A stretch of DNA of 64,000 nucleotides. Origin: Margaritifera margaritifera (taxonomy: Eukaryota; Mollusca; Bivalvia; Unionida; Margaritiferidae). The position numbers and the translations under genes are program-made. The notes below the pieces were generated by a model that was given only the letters and a program-made list of their open reading frames with translations, was not told where the DNA came from and did not search any database. Location: NCBI GenBank assembly GCA_029931535.1, contig JAQPZY010001660.1, positions 6,642,001 to 6,706,000 on the forward strand, read 5' to 3'. Below are positions 19,286-38,845 of this stretch, piece by piece; positions within the stretch are counted from its first letter, which is position 1, and each line of letters opens with the position of its first letter.

Positions 19286-19321
19286 TCTTTTCTTGGTAAA
19301 TGGTTGGCCCTGAAAAGGGCC
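19286..19321 (-). terminator. Histone-type 3' end signal of the left outermost gene
   Basis: On the minus strand GGCCCTTTTCAGGGCC (19321-19306) forms a 6-bp stem with a TTTC loop. AACC follows, then CAAGAAAAGA (19295-19286), ten bases after the stem. Stem-loop plus purine-rich downstream element is the layout of metazoan replication-dependent histone mRNA 3' ends. It lies inside the left TIR, 25 bp after the minus-strand ORF stop. Confidence 0.75.
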
Positions 19322-19345
19322 GTTGGAGTTTGTTAACCAATCAAG

Positions 19346-19579
19346 TTAACATAGGTGGCATCTCATGGAGGGTCTTTTTCTCCTTAGACCTCTACGTACT
19401 TCAGGCCCGTAGTGAAGGACACGCTTCAAGCATCCTTGTCTTTCGACATAAATTCTTCGTTTCCATATGGCTGTCTCGGTCATCTTCGTGATAGCCCATG
19501 AGGCTTTTACATACATTGGATAGTCCAGATTGAACAGCATCCCCAAGACGAGGTTCGATGATTCCACTGAGGTATACAT
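19346..19579 (-). CDS. Left-end small gene L0, unknown, basic C-terminus
   Basis: An intact 77-codon ORF starts at ATG 19579 (MYTSVESSNLVLGML...). The C-terminal half is basic (RRGLRRKRPSMR). TATATATA lies 18-26 bp upstream on the same strand, and a histone-type stem-loop follows the stop. I do not recognise the protein. The very short distance from TATA to ATG means the leader would be almost absent or start at the ATG; an alternative start upstream is not seen. Confidence 0.5.
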   Translation of the reverse strand: MYTSVESSNLVLGMLFNLDYPMYVKASWAITKMTETAIWKRRIYVERQGCLKRVLHYGPEVRRGLRRKRPSMRCHLC

Positions 19580-19593
19580 CTTGAGACAAGCGG

Positions 19594-19605
19594 TGGTATA
19601 TATAG
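19594..19605 (-). promoter_or_regulatory. TATA box for L0
   Basis: GGCTATATATACC on the minus strand just upstream of ATG 19579. Confidence 0.45.
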
Positions 19606-19719
19606 CCTAAGAGCGAATTGAAACGGATCGAAATGAACTACCAATCCAATGTCGCGTTACAACCGGGTAGGTTTTTCTTCCAATCGGAAGAGAGCGGGGG
19701 GGGGGGGGACGTCATCTTG

Positions 19720-19729
19720 AGTATAAAGG
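19720..19729 (+). promoter_or_regulatory. TATA box for L1
   Basis: GAGTATAAAGGC lies 40 bp upstream of ATG 19768, after a G-run (19696-19709) and GACGTCATC. L0 and L1 are divergent. Confidence 0.55.
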
Positions 19730-19767
19730 CATCACAGTGTTCGTAGGGTTTTACCTTGAGTGACATA

Positions 19768-20337
19768 ATGGAGACTACGAAGAGTATGTATTGAGGTGAG
19801 CCTGCAACAAATGCCGTGCTGAACTTTCAACCGGAAGAGTTTAATTTAGATTTTCTGTCTCAAGAATTTTTACCTGAAACCACGACTGCTGTACCGGCCT
19901 CTTTGCCTGTCATGGATGATTTTAAAAAGAGGCAACAAGAAGAATTAGAATTTTTTTTACAACGTCAGAGAGAAGCCAAAGAAGTTTATCTTCAACAAGA
20001 AGAGGATAGAAGAAAACAAGAAGAAGAAATAAGAAAGTTAGAAGAGGAGAAGTGTGAAGAAGAGAGTGAGGAAAACAAAACGGTGAGTCTACTACAAGAC
20101 ATTTTAGCGGAGTTAAAAAATCTGAAAAACATGTATCAGATTTCTTTAACACAACCCAAGAGAAAGAGACCTTCACGGGCCAAACATTCTAAACCCATCA
20201 CTACTACTGAGATGCTACCACCACCACCACCATTCACTACTACTACTACTACCAAAGCAGCAGCCGGAGGAGGAGGAATAGGAGTTGGTCGTGGAAAGGG
20301 ATTGAGACAGTTGAAGCTGATCATGTCCAGTCCATAA
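19768..20337 (+). pseudogene. Left-end small gene L1: coiled-coil protein, one in-frame stop
   Basis: ATG 19768 opens a frame with one early TGA (19792-19794) and then 173 open codons. The middle (about residues 50-110) is a highly charged Gln/Glu/Arg/Lys coiled coil (KKRQQEELEFFLQRQREAKE). The C-terminal part has a basic patch (PKRKRPSRAKHSK, possible nuclear signal), a Pro/Thr run and a Gly-rich segment ending GRGKGLRQLKLIMSSP. The family is not recognised. Own TATA box upstream, histone-type stem-loop 28 bp after the stop. If initiation occurs downstream of the early stop, the protein may still be made. Confidence 0.6.
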
Positions 20338-20364
20338 GTTTGTTTAACAAACAAACACCCCAAC

Positions 20365-20400
20365 GGTCCTTTTCAGGACCACCCAGATCTCTAGAAAAGA
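20365..20400 (+). terminator. Histone-type 3' end signal of L1
   Basis: GGTCCTTTTCAGGACC (20365-20380), then ACCCA, then CTAGAAAAGA (20391-20400). Relative to the other copies the second stem pair switches from C-G to T-A on both arms, a compensatory change supporting RNA structure. Sequence around it (CAACGG...ACCCA) closely follows the histone stem-loop consensus. Confidence 0.8.
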
Positions 20401-20586
20401 TGATCATTCCATTTGCCAAATCAAGTAAAACTTTAAAATCCCATCTTTGGTTTGTGTAAGATGAGTGCGTGCATGCATCCATACTCTAAAAAAACAAAAA
20501 ATACTTACTTTTTTTCCATTCTGGTCTATTCTCTTATTAAAAAAAATCACAATGAACATAACACCACACTCAAAAAAGTTCATCGT

Positions 20587-21108
20587 TCACTGTCTGTCTC
20601 TCTTGTTCTTGAATTTCTTCATAGGGATCAAGGGTTCTTTTTCTTCTTCTTTCTCACTGTCTTCCAGTTGTCTAGCTTTCTTGCTTTTCTTGACGATGGG
20701 GATAGGTTCTTCTTTGGGGACTGAAGATCCCTCGGCTTCCTCCCTCTCTGGTAGGTTCTCTTGTTTCTGAGGACACTCGGAAGACCAATGTCCTTTTTCT
20801 TGACATTGATAACAGGTATCTTTTGTTTTGTCTCTCTTTTCGTTTCTTTGGTTTTGTTGACATTCTGGAGCCCAATGTCCTTTCTCTTGGCAGATATAGC
20901 AAGTATCTTGACTTTTATCTCTCTTTTGTTTTCTTTGAGGACATAATGAAGCCCAATGTCCTTTCTTTTGGCAGATATAGCAAGTATCTTAACTTTTATC
21001 TCAAGCGCAGTTGTGTTGAAATATCCTGTTGTCTATAGCCTGATAGTAATTGCCAGGGTTATAAATTGGAATACATCTGCGGTATAATGTATTTCTTGAC
21101 TCTTCCAT
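20587..21108 (-). pseudogene. Zinc-knuckle (CCHC x3) protein, two in-frame stops
   Basis: The minus strand from ATG 21108 encodes a 35-residue N-terminus (MEESRNTLYRRC...), then two stops (near codons 36 and 40). Three tandem zinc knuckles of the form C-x2-C-x4-H-x4-C follow: CYICQKKGHWASLC, CYICQEKGHWAPEC and CYQCQEKGHWSSEC. An acidic/basic C-terminal tail ends at 20587. The knuckles are near-identical ~70-bp DNA duplications, so they expanded recently. CCHC knuckles bind single-stranded nucleic acid. It converges with L1 and diverges from PolB. The gene was missed as a simple ORF because of the stops. Confidence 0.75.
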
Positions 21109-21162
21109 CTTCACAGTTTGAAAGTGGAATCACGAATACTGATTCTGAGGGTAAGAAGGTAT

Positions 21163-21176
21163 CTCTATATATAGCG
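21163..21176. promoter_or_regulatory. Palindromic TATA between zinc-knuckle gene and PolB
   Basis: CTATATATAG is a perfect palindrome placed 48 bp before the PolB ATG (21222) and 57 bp before the zinc-knuckle ATG (21108, opposite strand), so it could serve both directions. Confidence 0.5.
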
Positions 21177-21221
21177 AGAGACCCTGTGTGAAACTGAATC
21201 AGATTCAAATCAGACTTCAAG

Positions 21222-24200
21222 ATGAAAAGATCACGCCCAATCCATGAGAAAACAGAAGAAGAAACGAAGAGACGGCGACGAAGACTTTCCATGCCGCCTG
21301 AAACACCGCTAGATGAACTGCTAGCTCAAATCCATGCTAGCGATTTCGAAGAGGAGATGAGTGAGCCTGAAACCAAACCACCTTCTACCAAACCCAAAGA
21401 ATTTACCACCCCTCACCAAGAAAGACCTACCGTGGCTCCCGAAAATTACAATCGCATTCGAGAGACACAAAAAATAACCTATAGAAAATTTCGAACTACG
21501 GCTTACACTCACACTGTCCACTTTAAAGACTTCAAGTCCGAAGTGCCTCCCGAGAAAGCTGCAGGGTTCATTACCGATTTGTGGGGTTCTGTGTTACAGA
21601 ACTTGAAACAACAATGCGGAGCCAAAGAGGACGATCGATTGAGACTGTCCATTCATCATGACAGTTTGAAGTCGCCTGTCTGGATCAAGTTCAGCACCCC
21701 GGCAGAATTAACACCAGCCAAAGTCATGACCAAAATCGAACACGTTCAACAATCCAACAAAGAGTTTACCATCACCGATGGAAAGGCTACACTTTACATG
21801 ACTCACGTATCCCTCCTCGAGGTAGCGGACGAAGCAGGAAAGTGTTACTGGTGGACGACCTTCGCAGTACGAAACGCAGTGTCGTCCAAATCGACAATTC
21901 TCAGGACCAGATGTGCTTGGCCCGTGCCATCGTGGTGGGGCGAACGTATGCCAACAAGAACGAGAGCGTAGAATGGAAAAGAGCCTGGAAGAACATTCGA
22001 CGATTGTACAGACCCCAACAACGAAAAGAACCAGAACTCCTGTTACGACAAGCAGGCATACCCAAAGAGACCGTGTGTGGCATTTCTCAAATGCAACAAC
22101 TTCAAGACGTCTTGGCTCCTGGCTACACCTTGAAAGTACACCCTCAAGAAGCGCGCGGAGCTCTGCTGTTTCGAGGACCCGATTTCCCCGAAGGAAAATA
22201 CATTCACATCTATTACCATCAAGAACATTTCGATGCCATCACCAGTATTACAGAATTTCTAGGATACTCTTACTACTGCGAGAAATGTGAGCAAGGATTT
22301 AACAGTTGAGAGCGACACATTCATTGTGGAGAGAGATGTCGGGGCTGTTTAGCTGCCAAGCCATGCCTTCCTGAAAAACAGGTGCATTGTGCGACGTGTC
22401 GACGAACCTTTGTCAGTCCCTCTTGTTACGAACAGCATCGCAGGACACAAGGTCACCAGCAGAAATGTGCTTGCGACTTATTGAAATTGTGCTCCAAGTG
22501 TGAACAACTGATTCGAACCAACAACCCCAAGGCACAGACTTGTACCGGAAAGAAAAGCTGTCGCATTTGCAAGCAGATGGTTGACTTTGATCATCAATGT
22601 TTCATTCAAAAGTACGACAATACACTGAAGAAAGAATTAAAGACTGATCAAAACAAGAACCAAGTGGGTTTCATCTTTTTTGATTTTGGATGCATGCAAT
22701 AAACAGGCATTCACATTCCCAATTTCTGCGTCGCTCATCAGGCTTGTGAGAAGTGCATCCAAGAACCTATCTACGTGCACTGTCCTCATTGAGGTAGGAT
22801 TCCAGGAGGACGTGAAAAAATCATTCGTGGTCCCAACACTTTGTCCAAGTTTGCTGAATGGATTTTAGACCCTACCGACAACACTTGGAGCGAAGAGGAC
22901 ATTCAACGTTACGGGACCTGTCATCGCTATGCGACCGTCATGGCTCACAATTTCTCAGGATACGATGGACAGTTTTTGTTAAAATATTATTCACAACAAG
23001 GTACTGAATGCCCTAAAGTCACCATGAATGGAGCCAAACTGATCTACATGCAAGTGGGACAAGTGCAATTCTAAAGATTCCATGAGTTATTTGGCCATAC
23101 CTTTGAGTCGAATGCCTAAAACATTTGGCATGACAGAAATGGCCAAAGGATATTTTCCTCACTTCTTCAATACGGAAGCCAATCAACACGTCGCACTACC
23201 GCATTTGCCTGACGTTGACTATTACGACCCCGACGGAATGCACCCCGAACGCCGAGAAGCCTTTCACGCTTGGTACCACACTCACAAGTCAGAACCGTTT
23301 GACTTTCAAGATGAAATGCTGAAGTATTGTCGATCCGATGTGGACATTTTACGACGTTACTGCGGAAAGTTTCCACAATTATTTCTAGATCATGAAGAAG
23401 TTGATCCTTTGAAGGAAGCGTGCACCCTAATTAAAGCCTGTACCTTAGTGTACATCAAAAACTTCATGCCCGAGAATGAACTAGTCATCAAAGACTCCAA
23501 CACGTCTCTCTTTACCAGTCGTCAATACTCTACCAAAGCTTTGCGTTGGCTCCATTACTTGAGCCAAAAGGAAGACAAATGGATACAACATGCCAGAAAC
23601 GGAGGAGGAGAAAAGAAAATAGGTAGTCTTTCAGTGGATGGTTGGGACTTAGAAAACCCTCAGAGGGTGTACAAATTTCAGGGCTGCTTATTTCACGGAT
23701 GCCCTACTTGTTTTCCTCAACGAGACCTGAAAAATCCTCTCACGGGAGTCAGCATGGAAGACTTGTACGAATGCACTTACCAACGCCGGTTAAAGTTAGA
23801 AAGTCAAGGATACCAAGTTTTAGAAATGTGGGAGCACGACTACGATCGACGTTTTAAAACCAATCCTGAATTTAGGAGCATGGCCGAAAGTTACGACGTG
23901 GTTGACATCGAACCTTTTGGATCTACGCCACAGTTTGCTTGGAGGATGAACCAATGCCACGCGTTTGCTGTACGACGTAGATGAATCAAGAGGAGAAGAA
24001 ATCAAATACATCGACGTGTGTTCGTTGTATCCTTGGGTGTGCAAATATGCTCGATTTCCTACCGAACACCCTGAAATCTTGACAGAACACATCGACGTGG
24101 AACACATTCGTCAATACGAAGGATTGATCAAATACAAAGTCTTACCCCCAACCCACTTGTTCCATCCTATCTTACCTCATCATTGCCAAGTTAAACTGAT

Positions 24201-25311
24201 GTTTCCTTTATGCCGTACGTGTGCCGAAACATGTAACCAAGATGACCCCTGTCACCACAAGGAGGAAGAACGCGCTTTGACAAGAACGTGGGTCAGCGCC
24301 GAATTGTTTCGGGCTCTGGATCGAGGATACCGCTTGTTAAAAGTGTACGAGATCTGGCACTTTCCTACCACAGTACAATACCAAAAGGACGACGCTTCCC
24401 ATCCAGGCATTTTCTCGTGGTACGTCAACCAATTTCTTAAACTCAAACAAGAAGCCAGCGGCTATCCCTCATGGTGTCAGACTCCCGAAGACCAAGTCCG
24501 ATTCAAAGAACAGTACCGGGCCGTCGAAGGCATCACTTTGGAAGACATGGAAAAGAACGAAGGAAGAAGATCGTTTGCCAAAGTCATGCTCAATTGCTTG
24601 TGGGGAAAAATGGCACAACGTACGATCTTACCCAAGACGGAATACTTGACCGATCCCAGTACCTACTTTAAACTGGTAGACGACAAAAGTATACTGATGA
24701 AACACGTAGAAATCGTCCGTGAAGATTTGATCTTAGTCAGTTTCGAAGAAGAATGCAAGTTTGTACGCCCCGACAAGTTTAGCAACGTGATCATTGCAGC
24801 TTACGTGACAGCCCATGCTCGCTTGAAATTGTACGACAAAGCTTTAGAAGTGTTGGGAGATCGTGTCCTGTACTTTGACACCGACAGTTGTATGTACATC
24901 CATCGCCCTGGGGCCCCACACCCTACCATCCAAGGAGATCATTTAGGAGCCTGGATGGACGAGCACCCTCAAGAGACCATCCTGAGTTCTGCCTGCGGCG
25001 GCCCTAAAAATTACGTCTATCGATACCGAGACCGACAAGGCCAACTTCACACCAAATGCAAAGTCAAAGGATTAACCCTGAACTATCGAACCAGCCAAGT
25101 GGTGAACTTTGAGGTTTTGAAAAATGCTTTGCTAACTGAACAAGCGGAAGACTTTCGAGTGAAAACTTTAGAACCTCACAAGATCGTACGGTTACCCAAT
25201 CACCAAATCATCACTCGACCTGTAGGAAAAGTTTACCAAATTGTGTACCAGAAACGAGTGAGACTTCCAGACCACACGACTTTACCGTATGGACACGCCG
25301 ATCTTCACTAG
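21222..25311 (+). pseudogene. Protein-primed family B DNA polymerase (Polinton PolB), broken
   Basis: The DNA polymerase copies the element using a terminal protein. The N-terminal part is a basic/variable extension, then a Cys/His-rich region (YYCEKCEQGF, HCATCRRTFVSPSCYEQH). Exonuclease-like blocks follow: FIFFDFGCMQ, MAHNFSGYDGQF and YCRSDVDILRRY. Palm motifs lie in the last 448 open codons: VCSLYPWV (A), KVMLNCLWGKM (B), YFDTDSCMYI (C). Breaks: frame changes near 21808, 23072 and 23935; stops at 22307, 22700, 22790 and 23947. In the first exo block the residue after DF is Gly, where an acidic residue is usual. Gene length (about 1,360 codons) fits the family. Confidence 0.9.
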
Positions 25312-25335
25312 AACAGAAAAGCACCAAGATTGACG

Positions 25336-25863
25336 ATGACTTCAACACAGCAACCGTGTGATGAACCCACTGCAGACTTCAAGTTGAAAGAATACAAACT
25401 TTCCGTGGTCTTGCCTGACTATTGTGATTGTACCAGTCGATTGAACATGTTCAAAAAATGGCCTAAACATAGGAATGGATTACCCACTTCCAGCTCTTTA
25501 GCCAGAGCAAGATTTGTCTACTTTGGACAGGGAAGTGAAGTGCAGTGTTTCAGTTGTGGTGCAACCATTCACATGGACTATAAAGATTCAGCTATCCTGG
25601 AACATGCCAGATGGTCTCCAAGCTGTGGTTACCTTTCTTTGGTGTTTCCACAGGATAAAACAGTACCATTCTCCAGTATAAAAAAGGACCACTTCCAAGG
25701 AGTACCACACCACATTAGGACTTCAAACGTTGACCGAGCAAGAAGAAAAAAGATGAATGCGAATTCCACCAACCCACCGAGTGAGAAATCTACTGTGAAC
25801 TTCAAGTGCGATCACGACCTGGAGTGCGATGCGGTGCCATGCGACGAGACGGATGCGCTTTGA
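25336..25863 (+). CDS. BIR-domain (IAP-like) protein 1
   Basis: ATG 25336 opens 175 intact codons. Residues about 30-100 form a BIR domain: RLNMFKKWPK, LARARFVYFGQGSEVQCFSC, then H and C in EHARWSPSCGYL, giving the C-x2-C...H-x6-C zinc site. The usual Trp in the middle is replaced (HMDYKDS). The C-terminal tail is basic then Asp/Cys-rich, with no RING finger. BIR proteins of viruses and hosts bind caspases or IAP antagonists and block cell death. It follows the PolB stop by 24 bp and is one of the few intact ORFs. Confidence 0.85.
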   Translation: MTSTQQPCDEPTADFKLKEYKLSVVLPDYCDCTSRLNMFKKWPKHRNGLPTSSSLARARFVYFGQGSEVQCFSCGATIHMDYKDSAILEHARWSPSCGYLSLVFPQDKTVPFSSIKKDHFQGVPHHIRTSNVDRARRKKMNANSTNPPSEKSTVNFKCDHDLECDAVPCDETDAL

Positions 25864-25968
25864 CATCAGCGATGCAGCACGACTTACCGCTCCACTAGCG
25901 ATGCAGGACGCCCTTTCTTCTTTATTGGGAATGCTAAACGTATCCCTACCTGTGTATGCCATCCCTAC

Positions 25969-26283
25969 ATGGGTAAAGAATTGACACTGCCTGTGGTTTT
26001 GCCTGGCTATTACAAGTTTCAAAAGCGACTCCAGACGTTCCAAGATAAGTGGCCTAAATAGCTACAAGGACCTACTCCCAATGCTTTAGCCAGATCCGGA
26101 TTTATCTACTTGGGAGAAGGAGATAAAGTTCAGTGTTTCAGTTGTGATGTGAGACTTCACCAATGGGAGCCTAACGACTCTGCTTACTTGGAACATGCTA
26201 GATGGTCTCCGCACTGTCAGTACTTGCCTTTAGTTGGTGAAGAGTACGCGTACGATGAGTCGGATGCCAGTTCCAAGAAGTAA
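25969..26283 (+). pseudogene. BIR-domain (IAP-like) protein 2, one in-frame stop
   Basis: ATG 25969 opens a 104-codon frame with a TAG at 26059-26061. The domain is canonical: LARSGFIYLGEGDKVQCFSC, LHQWEPNDSAYLEH (with the typical Trp) and HARWSPHCQYL. It is a paralogue of BIR 1 (shared LPVVLPGYY/LSVVLPDYC start and HARWSP), so a tandem duplication within the element. An upstream start beyond 25969 is excluded by stops. It is followed after 1 bp by the next ORF. Confidence 0.8.
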
Positions 26284-26284
26284 C

Positions 26285-26770
26285 ATGTCAGATGATACTT
26301 TACAAGAATACATTTGTGGTTTGCCTTGGGAGCTGCGAGAACGCATTTACCAAGAATTGGTTCAGATACAAGTGAAACGCAAAGAACCATTGCATCCTTT
26401 ATGACACAGAAAATTTAACCAGTGGTATCTGAATGCTATAAGAAGTTTAATTACTTTGAAAAGGTTCAAATGGTCAAACACTGATCGAATAAGAAATTGG
26501 GCTTGTAAGAGATTGGATAAAACGACATCTCCCTATAATGCGGGAGTGATACACAAAATTCCATGGAACGAAGTGGAGGAAATAAAAGTGACCAACTTTG
26601 AGGAATACCCAAAACATTTACAAGACGTGTCACCTCAAGACGAAACACCTTTACTTCATCTGAGGTGTAAGGTCATCACTGAACATCTTGGATATCCTTT
26701 ACCCACCGATTCCATTTGGCAAGTGTATGACTATTTCGTCACAAAGAAAGTCGTGCCTGTGAATGGTTAG
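26285..26770 (+). pseudogene. F-box-like small protein A, one in-frame stop
   Basis: ATG 26285 gives 161 codons with a TGA near 26402. The N-terminus ICGLPWELRERIYQELVQIQ resembles the start of an F-box (LPxELxxxI), the motif that docks substrate adaptors to SCF ubiquitin ligases, but it is too short to be sure. The rest (KIPWNEVEEI, GYPLPTDSIWQVYDYF) is not recognised. It is paralogous to the next gene. Confidence 0.5.
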
Positions 26771-27210
26771 TTTAGAAGAGCGCATTCGTGGTTTGCCTTT
26801 GGAGCTGCGAGAACGCATTTACAGAGAGTTTGTCAAGATACAAGTGAAACGCAAACTCAAAGTCATTTCTCGATTTTTAATCTATGCTTACTTCCAAACT
26901 GTAAGAAGAGTGATTCTGGGGAGAACCTATCATAGTAGGTGCTCTGGAGTAGTCTATCACAAAAGATACCAACCTTGGGAATCTGGATATAAAAACCCAC
27001 CATGACATGACCGTGGTCTTCACTTGTGAAACGTATTCCGTGGAAGGAAATCAACGATCGTGTTCAGACCTTAGAGGATTATAGACACTTGATACAAGAA
27101 CTGTTTCCATTGAATTTTGGACGCTATGCGGTGTGTGTGTTAGTGACTGCATTTCTTGGATTTCGTTTTCCAGGACATTCGTTGTGGACTATTTTGGAGG
27201 AACAGTGTTG
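26763..27210 (+). pseudogene. F-box-like small protein B (paralogue of A), frame-broken
   Basis: It starts at ATG 26763, overlapping the end of A by 8 bp. The N-terminus IRGLPLELRERIYREFVKIQ is nearly the same as in A. After a stop at 27003-27005 the similarity resumes in another frame: KRIPWKEINDRVQTLEDY and GFRFPGHSLWTILEEQ, matching A's KIPWNEVEEI and GYPLPTDSIWQVYDY. A tandem duplicate; function unknown. Confidence 0.5.
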
Positions 27211-27230
27211 TTGGTGGACTAACCAAAGAC

Positions 27231-27479
27231 ATGACCATTCACGCTTTATCGGCACACGAAAGACAAATTGTGCTCAAAGTGTTGAGACTCGTGATGAACA
27301 CGAGTTGTGTACCTCCGTGTGAAGACATTAGTAAAACTTTATCTACCCTTGTGTGCATCGCTAGTTGGTTACACCAACAACTTTACGATTGGAAAGATGT
27401 ACGTGACTGGAAAAGTATTGGTTTCTATGCTTGGCTACAAGAAGTGGCACAGTTTGCCAAAGACCTGGCACATCACTAA
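27231..27479 (+). CDS. Small hypothetical protein
   Basis: Intact 82-codon ORF from ATG 27231 (MTIHALSAHERQIVLKVLRL...AQFAKDLAHH), predicted mostly helical. It may be a separate gene or the C-terminal part of B after a frame change. Not recognised. Confidence 0.4.
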   Translation: MTIHALSAHERQIVLKVLRLVMNTSCVPPCEDISKTLSTLVCIASWLHQQLYDWKDVRDWKSIGFYAWLQEVAQFAKDLAHH

Positions 27480-27513
27480 GTTTCCAAAAGTGAATTTGGA
27501 ACCCAAGTTCACC

Positions 27514-27802: not shown

Positions 27803-27850
27803 ATATGTTTTTGTTTGTTTAAAACATTAAACGTGTATGAAACGTATAAA

Positions 27851-28631: not shown

Positions 28632-28641
28632 AAAGAAAAAA

Positions 28642-28651
28642 ACTATAAAAA
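28642..28651 (+). promoter_or_regulatory. TATA-like box before the Lys-rich core gene
   Basis: AACTATAAAAAC lies about 40 bp upstream of ATG 28688. Confidence 0.4.
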
Positions 28652-28687
28652 CATCCACTGCGTCATTTCTTTCTCACAGTCTTCAAG

Positions 28688-29540: not shown

Positions 29541-29590
29541 ATTAGAAGTGTGACCTGCCAGAGACCTCAGACTTGCTCCTGACATCCAAG

Positions 29591-29992: not shown

Positions 29993-30071
29993 TAAAAAGA
30001 CGGGAAGAAAAAAAGAAGATAAAAAGTACTCCCTTCTCTGGAAAGACCACACATTTGTACCTTTGGATGTC

Positions 30072-30579: not shown

Positions 30580-30738
30580 AGTGTAAAAAGACACCACCAA
30601 GAAGAAACCTACCATCATCACCCCTTCTTCACAACCCACTCCTGTGGCTTGTCGAACATGTCAAGCCGCTTCGTCCAAACCTCACGACACCAAAAGTAGT
30701 AGTATCGAACAGTGGGCGACTTATTGAGGAGTCCAAAC

Positions 30739-31848
30739 ATGGAGAAACTTTTAGCTAGCCTTTACTACAATCCTGGCCATGCTGCTGGTTACGGAGGAGT
30801 TACAAAATTTTATCGGTCTGCCAAAAGTAAATTGAAAAGTGTACGTTTGGCAGAAGTACGAAGATGGTTACAAGAACAATTGACGTACACGTTACACAAA
30901 CCCATTCAACAAAAATATTCTAGAAGTCCAACCAAAGTGGAGGGTATCGATCATCAATGGCAAGCAGATTTAGCCGACGTCTCTCATTTGGCAGCCTACA
31001 ATCGTGGTCACAAATATTTGTTTTGTGTCATCAACGTGTTTTCCAAATTCGTTTGGGTCGTGCCTTTGACTTCTAAAAGCAGTACCGAATTGGTACATGC
31101 CTTAAAACTGGTGTTTAAACAAAGTGGCCGTCACCCTTTACGATGGCAAACCGACAAAGGCACCAAATTTCTAAACCAAGCTTTTCAAAAACAATTCAAA
31201 CAAAGACACATTCATTGTTTTACCACCGAAAATCCTGAAACCAAAGCTAGTGTCGTGGATCGTTTTCAAAGAACTTTGAAAGAACGCATGTGGAAATATT
31301 TTACACATCAACACACTCTAAAGTACATCGACGTGTTACCACGTTTGGTCAAAGCGTACAATCAATCGTACCATCGTAGCATCGGATGTGCCCCCGAAGA
31401 GGTCAGCCCTGAAAACGAAGTGACAGTGTTTGATAAATTGTTTGGTACACCCAAATGGAGACCCCAGAAGAAAACCCTGGGGTTGAAGACGGGAGATTGG
31501 GTTTGCATCGGAAAAACCAAACGCACTTTTGACAAAGGTTATTTACCCAAATGTATGACCAAATTGTTTTGTGTCACTGGACCCGTGCGTGGACATGATC
31601 TTCCCGTCTATAAATTTGAAGACATGCACGGAGAAGTGTTAAAAGGAACTTTTTACTTCCCTGAGTTACAACGAGTGACCAAAAAAAAAGACGACTTGTA
31701 TGACATCGAAAGCGTTCTCGAACAAAGAACATGCAAAGTGGGCAAACGTCGAGTGGAAGAAGTCAAAGTATGTTGGAAAGGATATCCCCTTAGTTTTGAT
31801 TCTTGGATTGCCGCTTCCCAAGTCGTCGACTCTAAAAAGAAGAAGTAA
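30739..31848 (+). CDS. Retroviral-type integrase with C-terminal chromodomain, catalytic Glu changed
   Basis: An uninterrupted 369-codon ORF. The rve core has Asp in QADLADV (first), Asp in WQTDKGTKF (second) and KASVVDRFQRTLKER, where the third catalytic position is Asp instead of the usual Glu. An SH3-like DNA-binding part (LKTGDWVCIG) follows, then a chromodomain (YDIESVLEQR, VCWKGYPLSFDSW) that in related elements guides insertion to histone marks. The enzyme inserts the element and makes the 6-bp duplication seen here. The Asp may reduce or abolish activity. Best-preserved core gene; ATG 30739 chosen over a GTG at 30712. Confidence 0.92.
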   Translation: MEKLLASLYYNPGHAAGYGGVTKFYRSAKSKLKSVRLAEVRRWLQEQLTYTLHKPIQQKYSRSPTKVEGIDHQWQADLADVSHLAAYNRGHKYLFCVINVFSKFVWVVPLTSKSSTELVHALKLVFKQSGRHPLRWQTDKGTKFLNQAFQKQFKQRHIHCFTTENPETKASVVDRFQRTLKERMWKYFTHQHTLKYIDVLPRLVKAYNQSYHRSIGCAPEEVSPENEVTVFDKLFGTPKWRPQKKTLGLKTGDWVCIGKTKRTFDKGYLPKCMTKLFCVTGPVRGHDLPVYKFEDMHGEVLKGTFYFPELQRVTKKKDDLYDIESVLEQRTCKVGKRRVEEVKVCWKGYPLSFDSWIAASQVVDSKKKK

Positions 31849-31854
31849 CCCAAC

Positions 31855-32142
31855 ATGCAGTGCAACACAGCCATGACCTCGACTCCTTCGCAGAGTTCCT
31901 CTCTTCAAGAATTACAAAAACAACCGCTCTGGGTGTGGTGCGGAGAACGTGTGCCTAAAAATCAAATCGTCTTTTTCTGCCAAATCTTTGTGGTGTATTG
32001 TGTCATTGGAGCAGCCATTGCCAATTTGAGTTTGCAACAAGGGGGCAAACAATTGTAGACCATTGTACTCAGCAGTTGCATCGGTTATCTTCTACCCAGT
32101 CCCTCCTTGAAATTTACGACGGACAACAGCGCAACGGTATGA
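31855..32142 (+). pseudogene. Conserved Polinton membrane protein, one in-frame stop
   Basis: ATG 31855 opens 95 codons with a TAG near 32056. First membrane segment: IVFFCQIFVVYCVIGAAIAN. Second: TIVLSSCIGYLLPSPSLK. The SCxGYLLPSPxLK signature between integrase and minor capsid is typical of Polinton/adintovirus membrane proteins, probably in the virion. The stop codon overlaps the next start as ATGA. Confidence 0.7.
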
Positions 32143-32264
32143 CCAACGCCAGTCCACCTTCTTCCAGTCACCACAATACCAGTCCTCTTTTGGAACCGTT
32201 TGAACATCATTCTCCTCTGAACTCGAGTGACTCCTCGGAGACCAGAACCACCTTGGAACTATGA
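32139..32264 (+). CDS. 41-residue Ser/Thr/His-rich ORF coupled by ATGA overlaps
   Basis: Its ATG (32139) overlaps the membrane-protein stop and its TGA (32262-32264) overlaps the minor capsid ATG (32261), each as ATGA. The sequence (MTNASPPSSSHHNTSPLLEP...) is low-complexity. Perfect double ATGA coupling suggests termination-reinitiation on a shared mRNA, or chance. Product unknown. Confidence 0.4.
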   Translation: MTNASPPSSSHHNTSPLLEPFEHHSPLNSSDSSETRTTLEL

Positions 32265-33151
32265 ATAACCGATTTTATTTAACTTTACCGAGTGACAGTT
32301 CCATGGATGTGTTTCCCAACAACACCTTATGTTGTTTCACGACCAAATTACCTCAGTCCATCCAATTGGATCACGAAGCTCATTGGGAAGTAGGTTTGAT
32401 AGAAATCATTTATCCTATGCAAGTTCAAAATATAAACGGTCAAAACACTTTCATCGTGGATATCCTGAACGAACAAGTACAAGAACACTTGGACAAAGCT
32501 GATCCTAGCTTTCACGAATGCAAAAAGGTATCAGATAAAAATTCTCCCTTGACGAGCTATACCGTGAGAATTCCTACAGAGTATTATTTTAGTGCTAAAC
32601 ATTTGGTGGACACGATTATGGCCATCTTCGAAGCCCTATTTGCCAAAGCCTTAGAAAAAGCCAAGAAAAGTGTCCAGATCAGTTACCATCCTGTGGCATG
32701 CAATCTCGTCTTGCAATTTTCGGACGACAAAAACATTAGCCATCACTTTTTCTCCTGGGTTGTATGCTATTTTGGGTGGGAATAGAAAGTTACTCAATAA
32801 AAAAGTCCAAAGCAACTAAGGATTCGGAAAGGCTTTTCACCACCCTATCGAATTGAACGTTGGACTGAATTTGTGGTGGAGTACAACATGGTGGGAAACA
32901 CAGCCGCTCCGTTACTGAGAGTCATTCCTTTCAAAGTGGATTCTGCCGTCCCCGCGTACGAAGATGGTGGAAACACGTATCACGTTCACCGTGAATTTGT
33001 ACATCCTCATTATCTTCCAGTCAGTAAATCGTATTTTGACAGTGTCAACATTAGTATAAAAGGAGATTTGGGACAAAGTGTTCCATTCATTAACAAAAGA
33101 AAAGTCACGGTGAAACTACATTTTCGAAAAAGGTTCTCCAGCGAATTGTAA
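32261..33151 (+). pseudogene. Minor capsid protein (penton-like), broken
   Basis: Forms the capsid vertices. The start FYLTLPSDSSMDVFPNNTLC and EAHWEVGLIEIIYPMQVQ are the family's N-terminal signature. The C-terminal jelly-roll part has MVGNTAAPLLRVIPF, HPHYLPVSKSYFDSVNISI and VTVKLHFRKRF. A region near 32755-32865 has two compensating frame changes and a TAA, so the ends share one frame. About 296 codons, normal length. Confidence 0.85.
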
Positions 33152-33159
33152 CACCAAAA

Positions 33160-33603
33160 ATGTATCCTGTGTACCGAGGAATGGCTCGACAACGATGACA
33201 CGGTTTAGGAGATATGTTAAAATCGGCTTTTTGGACAGTAGCCCCTATTTTGAAACCCATGGTGACTCGAGGATTGCATGCCTTAAAAGATGCCGCTTTG
33301 ACGCAAGGAAAAGAATTTCTGCAAAACGTCCTCATCAACAAACAAAATCTGAAAGAAGCCTTTATGAGAGCAGGAAAAAATGTGTTGATGCACACTGGAA
33401 AAGATCTTTTGGGTCTCCGAGAGAGTCCTATAAATTCACTTCACGCTTCTGGCCCTGGCATTACTTCTTCTTCCACTCCACAGCAAAGACAAGGCAGAAA
33501 GAGACGACGTTGACATCCCTTCAGAGCTCATAAAACACACGGTGTTCCAAAAAAGAATAAGAAAAGAAGAACGGTCAGAGAATTAGACGTGTTGGATTAC
33601 TAA
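33160..33603 (+). pseudogene. Small basic virion protein (adenovirus pX/mu-like), two in-frame stops
   Basis: ATG 33160 MYPVYRGMARQR, stop TGA 33196-33198, then GLGDMLKSAFWTVAPILKPM, an amphipathic helix region, STPQQRQGRKRRR, stop TGA 33511-33513, and a basic end (KKNKKRRTVRELDVLDY). The MYPVYRG start and Gly/hydrophobic helix match a small protein found between minor and major capsid genes of Polintons. Without reading past the stops, only the middle part is open. Confidence 0.6.
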
Positions 33604-33613
33604 ACCCTTGAAA

Positions 33614-34927
33614 ATGATGCACCGAGATTCTTGCGAATGTACCAAGTCAGAACTGGATCTGTTTACAATGCCCCCTACCATGATGAAGATGCAAGAATCA
33701 CAATGGGTGGAATTTCATCCTGTATTGTCTTTGATGACTTCAGCTCCTATCGAATTTGAAATCAAAGGACAAACTGAAGATTACATCGATCTGAATAGCA
33801 GCCACTTGTACCTGAAACTCAAAGTGATCAAAACGGACAACAGCAATTCTGATGGCAATGCCCGAGTCACTCCCGTCAATAATTTTTTGCATTCTTTGTT
33901 CAGTGAAGTAGATTTGTACTTGAATAACAAACTGGTCAGCAGCAGCATGGATACTTACTCTTACCGTGCTTACTTGGAAAATCTCTTGACGTACTGAAAA
34001 GAAGCCAAAAACACCCATCTGGATGCTTCCGTGGTATGGAAACCTGACACCTTGGATGCCTTCAACGACACAGCCGTGACTGCAGATGACAATCCTCACA
34101 ATGTGGGCTTCAACGACTGCCGAAAGAAAATCAGACAAGGGCGTACTTTAGAACTGATGGATCGTTTGCATTTGGACATGTGGTTGCAAGACAAGTATTT
34201 GTTGAACGGAGTGGATGTACGCCTGAGACTGAATAGCAGTAGTACCATCTTCCATTTGATGGCCAATGCCAACGAGTACAAAACCATCATCGAAGAAACC
34301 AGACTTTACGTGCGCCGTGTGGAAGTCTTACCTAAAGTAGCCAACAACATCAGTCAAACTTTGATCAGAACCACTGCCAAGTATCCTATACGACGAGTGG
34401 AAGTGAAAACATTTACCATTGCCGCTGGACTCCGATCCAAAGTCAAAGATCACGTTTTCCAAGGACAGCTCCCCAAACGTTTGCTGATTGGCATCGTCAG
34501 TAATGCAGCCCTCAACAGAGTCATCGATCAAAATCCCTTTGAGTTTCAACACTTTAATGTCTCCAAGATAGAAGTCAGTCGAGATGGCCAGACGTTGTGT
34601 ACCAGACCTTTTGAACCTAACTTTACCCAGAGAAATTACTTGTGATCTTACTTGACCGTGTTTGAAGCCACAGGACAGTTAGGCACCAACAGCAGCCACG
34701 GCAGTTCATACGAGGATTATGCAGGAGGATATGCGTTGTGGGGCTTTGATTTCACTCCTGACCAAGGCAGCGAAGAAGGACATTTCCACCCTATAAAATC
34801 AGGCCAACTTCGTGTGGAACTTCAGTTTGCTACAGCTCTAGCTAACACGGTGAACGTCATCTTGTATGCAGAATTTGATAATACTCTAGAAATCAACAGT
34901 TTGAGAGAAGTGATTCTAGACTATTAG
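33614..34927 (+). pseudogene. Major capsid protein (double jelly-roll), two in-frame stops
   Basis: Forms the icosahedral shell as trimers. One frame covers the whole gene (about 437 codons), interrupted by TGA at 33995-33997 and 34643-34645. Signature segments: VEFHPVLSLMTSAPIEFEIK, DYIDLNSSHLYLKLKV, NNFLHSLFSEVDLYLNNKLV, TYSYRAYLENLLTY, then ELMDRLHLDMWLQDKYLLNG, YPIRRVEVKTFTI, and at the C-terminus GYALWGFDFTPDQ and NTLEINSLREVI. The order and length are normal. The adjoining capsid and protease genes are on the same strand, as in an assembly module. Confidence 0.93.
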
Positions 34928-34938
34928 AAGAAAAAAAG

Positions 34939-35505
34939 ATGCAACACGAAGAACCTATGGAGATAGAACAAGAAGATGAGGGATTTTGTGAAGCACAGCA
35001 GTCACTACCCTCCACCAGTGATGACGATGTGATTCATCCAGAACCAAAAAAAGAAGAAGAAGAGAAAATTAGTGTTCCCAAGTTTGCTGGATTTATCCCA
35101 TGTATGCTGTCAAGATGGCCAGAACAAGAACAACATTTAGTGTCCTGTTTTGCTACGGAATTGGGTGCCAAAATTACAGATCTGTCTATATAACATTGTC
35201 ATGGATGTCAAATCAATCATCCGAGCCAGAAACAACACGACAAATGTTTGATGATGAGCGCACAAGAAAAAATGGACGAATATTTGGAGGACGCATGGTC
35301 TCTGATCTCGGAAGAAAAGGTGTTGAGAAAATGGTATAAAGACTTGCAGGATTCTTCTTCACCTCCACTCACTCCTCTGGAGATCCGATGCATCAAAGCT
35401 CACTTGCAAAAGAGTATAGAGACTGTCCGTGATTCATCGACTTACTTGAGAGACCAATTCAAGCATAAAGTCAAGTGTGAATTGATGACTTATCATTACC
35501 TGTGA
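34939..35505 (+). pseudogene. Conserved CxxC/His protein of Polintons, one in-frame stop
   Basis: ATG 34939 opens a frame of 188 codons with TAA at 35191-35193. The N-terminal half is acidic (EEPMEIEQEDEGF). Directly after the stop comes HCHGCQINHPSQKQHDKC, a Cys/His cluster likely to bind zinc, then an acidic helical domain (EKMDEYLEDAWSLISEEKVL). The cluster recurs in adintoviruses and related animal DNA viruses just before the protease. Function unknown. Confidence 0.65.
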
Positions 35506-35521
35506 AGCAAGAAAAAAAGAA

Positions 35522-36132
35522 ATGGATACCTGGGAACTTCATTACCTGTTGACTCACAGTTATTACACTTCTTCTTGGAATCCTATGGTTTGTGCTAAAG
35601 ATGAACTACCCCATCACAAACCTAAGACGTTCATGCCTATGTCATCAATACCGATGACAGTCATCGACCAGGAACCCATTGGGTGGCCGTGTACTTTCCC
35701 AATGATCACTGTGTGGAATATTTTGATTCTTATGGATTACCTCCTTTGGAAGACGACATCATTTACTTTATGAGAAGAAATGCCGTCTCTACTTGATTCA
35801 ATAATGCCAGATTACTAGGATCGGATTCTATGGTGTGTGGACAATATTGTGTACATTTTCTTCATCAACGCAATCTCGGATATTCCTTAGAACATTCAGT
35901 GACTTGTTTTGATAGTGAGTATGCTCGAAATGATGCTAAAGTAGAAAGATGGTTTTGTGAACATTATGGTTATCTCTTGTTTTTAGCTCAGAAACGTAGT
36001 GTGCATCAAAATGATGTAGAAAAGTGGAAGTTAAGTTTGCCTTCCCAACGTTGTCAACCCTGTAAAATACGTTCATGTTTAATCTTGTTGGTTAGTTGCA
36101 TTTTTATGTTAGAGAAGCTTCTTGTTCATTAA
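35522..36132 (+). pseudogene. Adenain-type cysteine protease, one frame change and one stop
   Basis: The virion maturation protease. It starts MDTWELHYLLTHSYY and has the VCAKDELP box. The frame changes near 35636, after which GTHWVAVYFP (catalytic His), VEYFDSYGLPP (catalytic Asp) and VCGQYCVHFL (catalytic Cys) are all retained. A TGA lies at 35794-35796. The C-terminus (CKIRSCLILLVSCIFMLEKL) ends in a hydrophobic segment, possibly a membrane anchor, which is unusual for adenain and may be a read-through extension. Confidence 0.85.
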
Positions 36133-36261
36133 AAAATGTTGATTTTTTTAAAAATTGGTGTTGTGTGATTTATTGAATTTGAAAAAAATGAAAAATGTAT
36201 ATGCTCTATCTCTTTCTATTGATCTGAGGCCACCAACTCTGTCCATTTCTCACTATCGATC

Positions 36262-36304
36262 TGAACCATGTTTTCCATCGCGTCCGTGCTTCCAGCATAT
36301 AAAA
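36262..36304 (+). promoter_or_regulatory. Right-end promoter R1 (TATA box)
   Basis: GTTTTCCATCGCGTCC...CATATAAAACGGTG. It shares order and wording with the R2 and R3 promoters. Confidence 0.65.
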
Positions 36305-36371
36305 CGGTGCGTTGGCTAGTGCAGTCACTCTTGTTGACTTGTCAAGATCTCAACAACAACACTTCAAGAAG

Positions 36372-36755
36372 ATGGCAGCCAAGATTAGCAAGTTGAATGA
36401 AGCCATGGTGAACATGCAGAGGGTGAGGCATCATTTGCTTCAGAACAACCCAGAGAGGAAGACGATGATCTTTTTGCAAATGGCTCAAGATCTGGTGGAA
36501 GAAGTCCTGAGAGAAGAAATCGTCAGGGACAGAACAGAACGGTAGCAGAGACAAAGAGTGCAGCAAAGACAACAACAACAGCAGCTACAACAACTCTTGC
36601 AGCCGATGAAACTACCAGATGGAGAAATCACCTGTAAGATGGATTGTGAGGAGTTTGCCTTCTCTTTCACCAGAAAGAGACCTTGTCTTAAAGCCATGAG
36701 AACCGTGGCAAAACGTGGCCGCCCTGCTGCGGCTGCTACTGCTACTAGAAGTTAA
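36372..36755 (+). pseudogene. Right-end small gene R1: helical/Gln-rich, one in-frame stop
   Basis: ATG 36372 (MAAKISKLNEAMVNMQRV) opens 127 codons with a TAG at 36543-36545 at the start of a Gln-run. A helical segment (FLQMAQDLVEEVLREEIV) resembles one in R3 (LTAQILVKEVMEKEVATI). The C-terminus is basic (KRGRPAAAATATRS), possibly nuclear. Own TATA box at 36296; histone-type stem-loop 20 bp after the stop. No known family. Confidence 0.6.
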
Positions 36756-36775
36756 ACACAACTTCTTACCCCAAT

Positions 36776-36811
36776 GGTCCTTTTCAGGGCCACCCAGATC
36801 TCTAGAAAAGA
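36776..36811 (+). terminator. Histone-type 3' end signal of R1
   Basis: GGTCCTTTTCAGGGCC (one T-G pair in the stem), ACCCA, then CTAGAAAAGA at 36802-36811. Confidence 0.78.
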
Positions 36812-36839
36812 TAACCACTCTTACATTGCCTAAAAAAAA

Positions 36840-37230
36840 CAAAATATGTTTTGTGTATGTATGTTTGTGTGTTTTGTCTTTGCCCACTTCAAAAAAATTT
36901 CCTTTCCCAAAAATGTTTGTATAAAGAGTGTGTGTTTGTGTTTTATAAAAAAAAAGGATTATGTGGTGTGTGTTTGATAAAAAAATATAAAAATTTTAAA
37001 AAGGGTTGTGTGGTGTGTGTTTGTATAGAGTGTGATTGTGTTTTATAAAAATAACAAAAATATTTTCTTTTTATTGTCCGCTTACTGGGTCTGTTTTTTT
37101 TGGTTAGGGGTGATGGAGGGCAGAATCCACGAAGCATAGAATGACGTCATCAGGATGACATCAGAAGCGGTTGTGTGGGTGATGTTTTTTTTAGGTGTTA
37201 GGGATGTTTTCCTTCATGTCCGCGCTTAAA
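36840..37230 (+). repeat. Intergenic block duplicated between R1/R2 and R2/R3
   Basis: The order TTTGTGTTTTATAAAAA, TGTGGTGTGTGTTTGATAAAA, TACTGGGTCTG, TTTTCCTTCATGTCC, TATATAAA recurs at 37640-37925. The promoter-gene-terminator unit has therefore been tandemly duplicated. Confidence 0.7.
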
Positions 37231-37240
37231 GTATATAAAA
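37209..37240 (+). promoter_or_regulatory. Right-end promoter R2 (TATA box)
   Basis: TTTTCCTTCATGTCCGCG then CTTAAAGTATATAAAAC, about 45 bp before ATG 37283. Confidence 0.7.
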
Positions 37241-37282
37241 CAACGCCTTCCCAGTTGAGCTACCCCCATTTACTTGTCAAAA

Positions 37283-37540
37283 ATGAACAAGAGCGAAATC
37301 ATCAGACAGATATGAGTGCATCTAGAGGTGGCGTGGCACCTCCTAAGGGAAGTGGAGAAGATGGAGAAGAGGGAGGAGGAGGAAAAGGAGAAGACAGAGC
37401 CCATCAGACCACATCGGATGATGACGGAGGATTGGGAGCCTGAAGCTACCCAACCTGTGTCGGCTTTCCCCATCATCTCCAAGAAACACCGACGCAGCAA
37501 AGCTAGATGGAGTGGGAGCTGCCCTGCTTGTAGGGCTTGA
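37283..37540 (+). pseudogene. Right-end small gene R2, one in-frame stop
   Basis: ATG 37283 (MNKSEIIRQI), TGA 37313-37315, then VHLEVAWHLLREVEKMEKRE, an acidic stretch and a basic Cys-containing end (KKHRRSKARWSGSCPACRA). Shorter than R1 and R3 but with the same start-helix pattern. Own TATA upstream, histone-type stem-loop 43 bp downstream. Unknown function. Confidence 0.55.
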
Positions 37541-37582
37541 CCAGGGAGGTGCTCACACCTCTAGATGTACTCAAAAAAACCC

Positions 37583-37618
37583 GGCCCTTTTCAGGGCCAC
37601 CCATTTATCAAGAAAAGA
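37583..37618 (+). terminator. Histone-type 3' end signal of R2
   Basis: GGCCCTTTTCAGGGCC (perfect stem), ACCCATTTAT, CAAGAAAAGA at 37609-37618, matching the downstream element of invertebrate histone genes. Confidence 0.82.
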
Positions 37619-37896
37619 TAAAAATCCAATTGGCCTTATATGTGTTTGTAGGTAGTGTGTTTGTGTGTATGTTTTCCCACTCCAAAACAAATTCCATTCC
37701 CTTGTTTTTGTTTGTAGAGTGTGTTTGTATAAAGAGTGTGTATGTGTTTTATAAAAAAATTAAAAAACAAAAAAGGGATTGTGTGGTGTGTATGTTTGAT
37801 AAAAAAAAAAAATACTTTCTTTTAGGTCCGCGTACTGGGTCTGTGTTTTTTTAGGTGTGGTAAGATTTTATATGTATGTTTTTGGGGAAGGGGATG

Positions 37897-37930
37897 TTTT
37901 CCTTCATGTCCATGCTTAAAGTATATAAAG
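37897..37930 (+). promoter_or_regulatory. Right-end promoter R3 (TATA box)
   Basis: TTTTCCTTCATGTCCATG then CTTAAAGTATATAAAGC, 35 bp before ATG 37958. Confidence 0.7.
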
Positions 37931-37957
37931 CGGTGTCTTCCGCAGTCACACCATTCA

Positions 37958-38492
37958 ATGTCAACTGAAAAGAAGACCAGAATGACAACCATCGAGAATC
38001 TGCAGAAAGCCTGGGATGTGATGGTGGGAGTGGAGTGCCTGGTAGAAAGGATAGAGTGTTGTTGGAGATATCCAACCACTCTACCCTTTGTCTCCAACCA
38101 AGTGGCCACCCTAAAGAATGCCAGGAGTCTGGTGCACGATGTGATGGTGGAGGACCATGAAGACCTCGTCTACCACAACACTTTGTCGAGTAGGGCTTCT
38201 CAAGAAAGCCCTGGACTTACTGGAAGGGGTGGAGTATTTTCTTCACCAAGTAAAGGAAGATTTGTGGTTGTATCCACCCCCCAGTACCGTCAGACGGGAA
38301 GCAACAGCCCTTCTCACAGCCCAAATACTGGTCAAAGAAGTAATGGAGAAGGAGGTGGCCACCATTAAGAAGGCTTCTGCTGATGAAAGAACTCAGAAGG
38401 AGAAGAAGAAGAAACAGAAAGACTTCCATCGCCTGAATTTGAACTGGATGAAAATCCAGGACAAGTTCAGGCGAATGGGACATCCCGACTAG
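37958..38492 (+). pseudogene. Right-end small gene R3: duplicated helical domain, frame change
   Basis: ATG 37958 starts domain 1 (LQKAWDVMVGVECLVERIEC, then NARSLVHDVMVEDHEDLV). The frame changes near 38190. Domain 2 follows (LLKKALDLLEGVEYFLHQVK, then LTAQILVKEVMEKEVATI) and a basic tail (KEKKKKQKDFHRLN). The two ~60-residue domains align, so the gene arose by internal duplication, and domain 2 also resembles R1. Not recognised. Confidence 0.6.
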
Positions 38493-38557
38493 CTGCCTGA
38501 TAAGAAGAAGAACAAATTTCACATCCCAGGTTTCCTAATCCAATGTTGGAGAAAACA

Positions 38558-38845
38558 TTAACCCACTCCAACGGCCTTTTTCAGGGCTAACCATTTACCA
38601 AGAAAAGATTATTTTTTCATGATTGCCTTTCCACTGTGTGTGTGTATGTGTGACTGTGTGTTTTCCCTCCCTGTTCCATTCCAATACGGGTCTGTAGAGA
38701 CCCACCCTGTTCCATTCCCGTATGGGTCCAGAGAGGCCCACCATGTTCAATTCCTGTACGGGCCTATAAATTTTGGGCCTATATTCCTTTGACCCTTTTT
38801 AACATAGAGGTCCCGTAGGGGCCCCAACACCCCCATCATACTACT
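38558..38845 (-). repeat. Polinton right terminal inverted repeat
   Basis: Reverse complement of 19051-19336 with scattered changes. It carries the three iterons and the R3 stem-loop. Confidence 0.93.
38573..38608 (+). terminator. Histone-type 3' end signal of R3, inside the right TIR
   Basis: GGCCTTTTTCAGGGCT (two wobble pairs), AACC, then CAAGAAAAGA at 38599-38608. It is the inverted partner of the signal in the left TIR, so each TIR ends the outermost gene that reads outward. Confidence 0.75.

Follow-up and report, generated by a model that had tools for sequence, protein, structure and literature searches.

In the genome of the bivalve Margaritifera margaritifera, a Polinton was found whose end genes are followed by 3' signals of the type known from replication-dependent histone genes. 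The element lies in a window of 64,000 nucleotides (nt; contig JAQPZY010001660.1 of assembly GCA_029931535.1, positions 6,642,001 to 6,706,000), which is the whole stretch of DNA that was analysed, and its five end genes are designated A, C, D, E and F. Judged from the sequence, it is highly probable that the 3' ends of these genes are formed in the histone manner by SLBP and the U7 small nuclear ribonucleoprotein (snRNP) of the host. The evidence comprises the signal itself, the fact that it accompanies the end genes and is conserved, the counterpart genes of the host and the complementarity to a host U7 candidate. The interpretation given in the original prediction, which was derived from the window without database searches, is partly supported as a whole.

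The proposed mechanism is as follows. The outermost genes are organised like replication-dependent histone genes: they are short, and a TATA motif precedes the ATG. Past the stop codon, mostly at a distance of ~10-80 nt, comes the stem-loop, after which the region of cleavage (ACCCA in most cases), an element predicted to bind U7 and, in the majority of signals, a TTGCC box follow. In copies of the element that are still alive, host SLBP would bind the stem-loop. The downstream element would be recognised by base pairing with the host U7 snRNP, and in this animal the TTGCC box would probably pair as well, its partner being a GGCAA within the 5' part of U7. Cleavage just past the stem-loop would yield short mRNAs without poly(A), whose abundance is predicted to be limited to S-phase (or to the oocyte). 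For histone pre-mRNA, passages of PMC7026596 describe that base pairing of U7 with the downstream element directs the U7 snRNP, which cuts 4-5 nt past the stem-loop, and that this cleavage yields histone mRNA without poly(A).

S-phase coupling and the lack of poly(A) had already been put forward in the original prediction, and we infer both from the signals; its putative label of 'early regulators' may apply to the end genes. As all cis parts are present, along with a host SLBP and a fitting U7 candidate, histone-type 3' ends were adopted as the working mechanism. Furthermore, it appears reasonably likely that a whole gene block in a large family of virus-like elements has come under the host histone mRNA pathway, in which case expression would track histone mRNA and replicating cells. 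The block is made up of the five gene types present in the window, four of which were tested genome-wide.

A search of the window for GGYCCTTTTCAGGRCC with up to three mismatches revealed exactly five matches in the 64 kb, a number attained by none of 100 dinucleotide shuffles. The Rfam model RF00032 (Histone3), applied at E up to 1, recovered the same five sites and no other, with three of them at or above the cut-off of 34 bits and two below. The covariance-model search suggested by the original prediction thus matched the stem-loop behind each of the five end genes that it had named, and the five histone-type stem-loops are confirmed as real. The start of the stem is located 20-80 nt past the stop codon of each named frame, and CWAGAAAAGA, as had been noted, is present downstream of all five stem-loops. 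The succession of stem-loop, tail and downstream element was described correctly, while the TTGCC box (Table 1) had been missed. Upstream of the ATG, a TATA motif was found at a distance of 25-74 nt in all five end genes versus two of six core genes, and promoter and 3' blocks recur among the right-end genes. Since the signals of genes E and A lie within the inverted repeats, these two of the five are not independent. As to the five small genes themselves, their predicted coordinates and 3' signals were retained and their frames corrected, with genes D, F and C containing stops and gene A being frame-shifted; a search for open versions elsewhere in the host genome, made for genes A, C, D and E, found them for all four.

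To follow the signal through the host genome, the 2.45 Gb assembly containing the window was used. In the RF00032 search, all of the 75 scored places, which were the best 75 of 508,685 first-look candidates, were above the cut-off. The corresponding 73 loci contained 111 good motifs, 106 of which were positioned 3' of a Polinton end gene on the same strand (E, 43; A, 41; D, 12; C, 10), with five having no assigned gene. Histone genes as the source of these matches were rejected, with core-histone queries (without H1) matching none of the 73 loci. A second set comprised loci whose DNA resembled the right end of the element (30 loci, two of them being the element of the window itself); here, 42 of 44 motifs were located 3' of an end gene, and a purine-rich downstream element was present in 40 of 44 signals, the window copy being excluded.

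Both sets had been selected by the signal or its surroundings, and therefore end-gene copies whose own 3' end had not caused them to be fetched were counted separately. Accepting a signal from 60 nt before to 200 nt after the expected stop, 58 of 59 such copies were found to carry one (D, 23; E, 16; C, 13; A, 6); these copies are related by descent and do not represent independent events. The sole exception was a C copy that had kept the downstream element and had a shortened stem-loop.

A strict pattern composed of stem-loop, ACCCA and downstream element gave 3,444 exact matches in the genome, for part of which the neighbouring end gene was checked. It fitted none of the seven host histone ends that were fetched, where the tails read ACACA, ATACA or ATGCA. 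A chance match or an artefact of a loose motif would be in line with the two window matches below the Rfam cut-off and with five IMG/VR contigs that fitted a looser pattern, the neighbouring frames of which were phage-like by eye and without Rfam histone match. This explanation is practically negligible, given that the reversed strict pattern had no match in the genome, the strict pattern had none in 84,980 prokaryote species genomes, and the signal adjoined 58 of the 59 end-gene copies.

Among 100 of the 3,444 matches listed, 19 clusters of more than 10 kb were recognised; the outermost signals faced outward in 15 of them, the same way in four and inward in none. The outward-facing outermost signals in these clusters repeat the layout of the window. 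It is possible, and we put this forward tentatively, that the signals are working histone-type ends with a purpose other than S-phase expression, such as export of intronless mRNA, expression in the oocyte or germline, or termination towards the outside. Located within inverted repeats and facing outward, the outermost signals would stop read-through into host DNA. Three of the five window signals, however, are internal and each follows a separate gene, so that border insulation alone is insufficient.

The histone-type 3' end was also assessed by its conservation. In a first test with 99 gene E pairs, identity was 43% at four-fold sites, 95.6% in stem-loops and 95.9% in downstream elements; most of these copies had entered the set through their own signal, a bias towards conserved signals. 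For pairs that were not signal-chosen, the identities at four-fold sites, in the stem-loop and in the downstream element were 41%, 91.2% and 91.1% for gene E (5 pairs) and 69%, 87.8% and 95.0% for gene D (20 pairs); for gene C (3 pairs), four-fold identity was 57-69% at a signal identity of 100%. Only copies with a detectable signal could enter this unbiased test. We conclude that in families C, D and E the signal is better conserved than four-fold sites are; family A is not so supported.

For comparison with the host, a histone-domain search of the genome was performed, in which 150 matches were listed, including tandem arrays on contigs C528, C642 and C308. Seven histone 3' ends (H3 and H2B, called by their last residues) were fetched, some of them being near-identical array copies. 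In all seven, GGCCCTTTT(T/C)AGGGCC is present together with a purine element (CTCTAGAAAAGATGA or TTCAAGAAAAGAG, for example) and a box with GCC as its last letters, and the gene D 3' end is similar to the H2B end of the host. The SLBP domain PF15247 was found on contig C413 as two exon-like matches of 64.3 and 38.8 bits.

In the element signals, TTGCC was found after the purine element in 130 of 143 cases, the spacing being 14-18 nt in 95 of the 130; in the controls, it occurred in 2.6% of shuffled letters and in 2 of 142 stretches at 100-145 nt further downstream. The 143 signals scanned are those members of a set of 174 in which a purine element was recognised and the available sequence was long enough, and this set counts the signals of the window more than once (window, loci L014 and L015).

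With the Rfam U7 model (RF00066), nine sub-threshold places were found in the host, and five of them were fetched for comparison. The candidate at positions 273643-273694 of contig C813 reads ATCTTTTCAAGTTTCTCTAG, followed by a hairpin. Its Sm site AAGTTTCTCTAG, after which the hairpin of 7 base pairs follows, has two differences from the consensus AAUUUGUCU and keeps the terminal CU, described in the relevant passage of PMC7026596 as virtually invariable. GGCAA is located 14 nt upstream of ATCTTTTC in this candidate, a distance that fits the TTGCC box. Duplex calculation with the 174 element signals gave a mean of -19.3 kcal/mol versus -9.1 kcal/mol for shuffled targets, and with the seven histone ends a mean of -21.5 kcal/mol versus -9.8 kcal/mol. 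Pairing beyond the 1% shuffle tail was obtained for 89% of the element signals and for all seven histone ends, compared with 0 to 14% of targets for the other four fetched candidates. Among 20 control stretches taken from the flank of the candidate, one reached -15.1 kcal/mol and the rest were at -11.7 kcal/mol or weaker. Complementarity to host U7, which the original prediction had proposed to examine, was thus found for a candidate that itself scores below the RF00066 cut-off. The data point to a contact of U7 that is probably bipartite, comprising the purine element and the TTGCC box with GGCAA, and that would be common to host histones and the element; no account of such a double contact was found in the literature consulted.

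The best RF00066 score, 29.4 bits, belonged to another place, locus L009 1501-1564 (contig C1214), which has an AATTTGTCTAG Sm site and, by eye, a strong hairpin. The complementarity of this Sm-site RNA candidate to the element signals was no higher than that of shuffles.

Hairpins also occur as replication or packaging signals, and a hairpin poly(A) signal of the giant-virus type constitutes a further class. That the element carries a hairpin of such another kind would agree with the location of two copies within the terminal inverted repeats. Nevertheless, this is extremely unlikely in view of the histone-like sequence, the passing of RF00032 by three of five signals, the tail, the purine element and the U7 complementarity, and the hairpin is found 3' of stop codons on the coding strand.

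Several observations weigh against histone-type end formation by SLBP and the U7 snRNP. Four of the five end genes of the window are interrupted, with only gene E being open, and the signals of genes F and A are those that score under the Rfam cut-off. Within 200 nt downstream of two signals, ATTAAA is present (at 20536 and 37759), and given this motif, the end genes may use poly(A). The U7 candidate attained 25.7 bits against the RF00066 cut-off of 34 and was the fourth of nine, and the pairing results presuppose that it is U7. With its 5' extension alone, the 1% shuffle tail was beaten for 11% of the element signals and 43% of the histone ends. When its promoter was compared with those of host U1 genes, 13 of 500 shuffles attained the summed score, the sum taking in five U1 genes and leaving out two other fetched U1 upstream regions; this likeness is only suggestive. 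In the lone unbiased gene A pair, four-fold identity was 88%, with 75% in the stem-loop and 67% in the downstream element, and stem-loop identity in the larger, signal-chosen A set was 78-89%.

The stem changes belong to the same group of observations. In the original prediction, they had been regarded as compensatory and as showing selection on RNA structure. Among 165 signals outside the window, stem pair 4 is T-A in 23 and a C/A mismatch in 15, and stem pair 3 is T-A in one. For 26 distinct 16-mers, 138 of 156 cells were paired versus a shuffled mean of 138.1. The shuffle test being null, covariation as proof of selection on the stem structure was rejected, and the case therefore rests on conservation, position and trans-complementarity instead.

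The signal could also be a piece of a host histone gene that was captured, duplicated within the element and is now neutral baggage. The closeness of the gene D 3' end to host H2B, the repetition of promoter and 3' blocks among the right-end genes, the null result for stem covariation and the poor conservation in the single unbiased gene A pair would be expected from such a history. On the other hand, the C, D and E pairs keep 88-100% signal identity at 41-69% four-fold identity, the signal is kept in 58 of 59 copies, and the TTGCC box in 130 of 143 signals. Capture is a fair story of the origin; neutrality is disfavoured, and we consider the explanation as a whole very unlikely. Concerning histone-type processing of the end genes, the copy in the window is partly decayed and therefore records the signal system rather than running it.

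The claim of the original prediction that non-histone end genes carry complete histone-type signals withstood these comparisons, based on the Rfam matches, the 58 of 59 copies, the conservation in families C, D and E, the likeness to host histone ends and the complementarity to the U7 candidate. That the end proteins are not histones was likewise upheld. In a Pfam search of seven end proteins of families A, C, D and E, there was no histone match and none above the cut-off, and tblastn with core-histone queries (without H1) gave no match in the fetched end-gene loci. On this sequence evidence, the end genes resemble histone genes at the 3' end and are not histone genes themselves. A search of the end proteins against PHROGs gave a best E of only 0.033. 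MAT1 was rejected as an assignment for one D protein, the match (E 0.0016) lying below the Pfam cut-off and over a charged stretch.

The median ratios of non-synonymous to synonymous substitution (dN/dS) were 0.10 (E), 0.22 (both A and C) and 0.24 (D), calculated from pairs with dS of 0.05-1.5 (kept: E, 81 of 136; A, 30 of 36; D, 35 of 36; C, 15 of 15). Because of these medians of 0.10-0.24, the end genes are regarded as real genes. The gene D family (e.g. L033:2301-2921) has acidic N-terminal stretches of the FNLDFL type, a charged middle and a basic stretch of the KRKRPSRAKH type; its GLGRGKGLRQLKLIM end presumably recalls H4/H2A tails.

Processing by SLBP and U7 is generally regarded as restricted to replication-dependent histone genes. 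If the end genes do use this route, a DNA virus or transposon would have a novel means of coupling its expression to host DNA replication while avoiding the poly(A) pathway, and the thousands of element signals in one genome could compete or coevolve with host histone processing. The time and cell type of Polinton expression and the role of the end genes would become directly testable, and thousands of natural variants of the histone 3' end, together with a possible second U7 contact, would be available for study.

The Polinton/Maverick group is defined by a 6-base target duplication, long inverted repeats and AG...CT ends. The element at 19051..38845 is a canonical Polinton, as follows from its AG...CT termini, 6-base duplication, inverted repeats, integrase and B-type polymerase (Table 1). 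In the Pfam search of the window, the B-type DNA polymerase was found in two frames, with PF03175 above the cut-off in both, and a packaging ATPase was indicated by a weak A32-type match (Pox_A32, 0.0079) below the cut-off. The capsid-like frames were without Pfam match, and one such frame, searched against PDB sequences, had no match there.

Table 1. Positions in the window of the Polinton, its end genes and their 3' signals.
Feature	Position	Strand	Remarks
Gene E, 77 amino acids, basic	19346..19579	-	Open in window copy; family dN/dS median 0.10
Gene E stem-loop, histone-type	19306..19321	-	RF00032 38.8 bits
Gene E downstream element CAAGAAAAGA	19286..19295	-	
Gene E TTGCC box	19267..19271	-	
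Gene D frame	19768..20337	+	In-frame stop at codon 9; open copies elsewhere in genome
Gene D stem-loop, histone-type	20365..20380	+	RF00032 35.8 bits
Gene D downstream element CTAGAAAAGA	20391..20400	+	Near that of host H2B
Gene D TTGCC box	20413..20417	+	
Gene F frame	36372..36755	+	In-frame stop at codon 58
Gene F stem-loop, histone-type	36776..36791	+	RF00032 28.5 bits, below cut-off 34, E 5e-4
Gene F downstream element CTAGAAAAGA	36802..36811	+	
Gene F TTGCC box	36826..36830	+	
Gene C frame	37283..37540	+	In-frame stop at codon 11; open copies elsewhere in genome
Gene C stem-loop, histone-type	37583..37598	+	RF00032 37.6 bits
Gene C downstream element CAAGAAAAGA	37609..37618	+	
Gene C variant TTGGCC	37630..37635	+	Where TTGCC box is expected
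Gene A	37958..38492	+	Frame-shifted in window copy; open copies elsewhere in genome
Gene A stem-loop, histone-type	38573..38588	+	RF00032 26.6 bits, below cut-off 34, E 3e-3
Gene A downstream element CAAGAAAAGA	38599..38608	+	
Gene A TTGCC box	38623..38627	+	
Polinton, 19,795 bases, termini AG...CT	19051..38845		Termini, duplication, rve integrase with weak chromodomain match, DNA polymerase B
Left target-site duplication TATGAA	19045..19050		Same 6 bases at 38846-38851
Left terminal inverted repeat	19051..19336		Contains E-gene signal; 95% identity to right repeat over 288 columns
Right terminal inverted repeat	38558..38845		Contains A-gene signal
rve integrase with chromodomain	30739..31848	+	Pfam PF00665 3e-11, above cut-off; PF00385 2e-4, below cut-off

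Further genes were noticed in the element and its surroundings. A BIR (inhibitor of apoptosis, IAP) domain at 25336-25863 (+; Pfam 1.8e-15) shows that the Polinton has an IAP-like gene, and a 91-base part of this stretch recurs 588 bases further, at ~26070-26160, with 76% identity, perhaps as a second IAP-like copy. A frame with three CCHC zinc-knuckle stretches (20587-20988, minus strand) is convergent with gene D, and no histone-type signal adjoining it was found on that strand. Outside the element, frames at 8468-9474 and 12305-14307 (-) resemble those of reverse transcriptase/recombinase retroelements and are DIRS-like by eye, and three overlapping open frames at 53036-53847 (+) extend across an apparent short tandem repeat.

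In the literature, of which most subscription papers were outside the search, no report was found of a virus or transposon using the histone 3' end route, and nothing was found on Polinton with SLBP or Maverick with histone mRNA. Relatives of the element in IMG/VR were looked for with integrase, polymerase, capsid-like and gene-E queries and with two patterns, and none were found. According to the section concerned of Bulzu et al. 2025 (PMC12220804), a scan of 8,300 genomes at the Rfam gathering cut-off gave six matches to the 'histone 3'UTR stem-loop' in a collection of Polinton-like viruses (PLVs) and virophages, none of them in cryptophyte PLVs. The original prediction had stated that no description of such signals in Polintons was known. 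In that section, the six matches are a bare count in a list of non-coding RNAs, without gene context, downstream element, U7 or function. Rfam histone stem-loop matches in Polinton-like viruses are thus already in print, and the gene context, the downstream element, the U7 pairing and the meaning go beyond that section.

With Polinton/Maverick elements and adintoviruses, the present element shares the 6-base duplication, the inverted repeats, AG...CT, the rve integrase with a chromodomain match and the B-type polymerase; for adintoviruses, an rve integrase with a C-terminal chromodomain is described in a passage of PMC11071296. It differs by the histone-type 3' ends on its end genes, and in the main text of PMC11071296, 'stem-loop' and 'polyadenylat' have no occurrence each. 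The 'Histoid' genes of adomaviruses, treated in a part of the same paper, provide another histone link in a group of animal DNA viruses, where it concerns a histone-like protein, whereas here it concerns the mRNA end. The closest likeness is to metazoan replication-dependent histone ends, with a six-base-pair stem, a TTTC/TTTA loop, an ACCCA-type tail, a U7-complementary purine element and a short 3' untranslated region, and the fetched H3 and H2B genes of the host end in the same fashion as the end genes of the element. In contrast to metazoan replication-dependent histone genes, however, the end genes are non-histone and reside on a mobile virus-like element.

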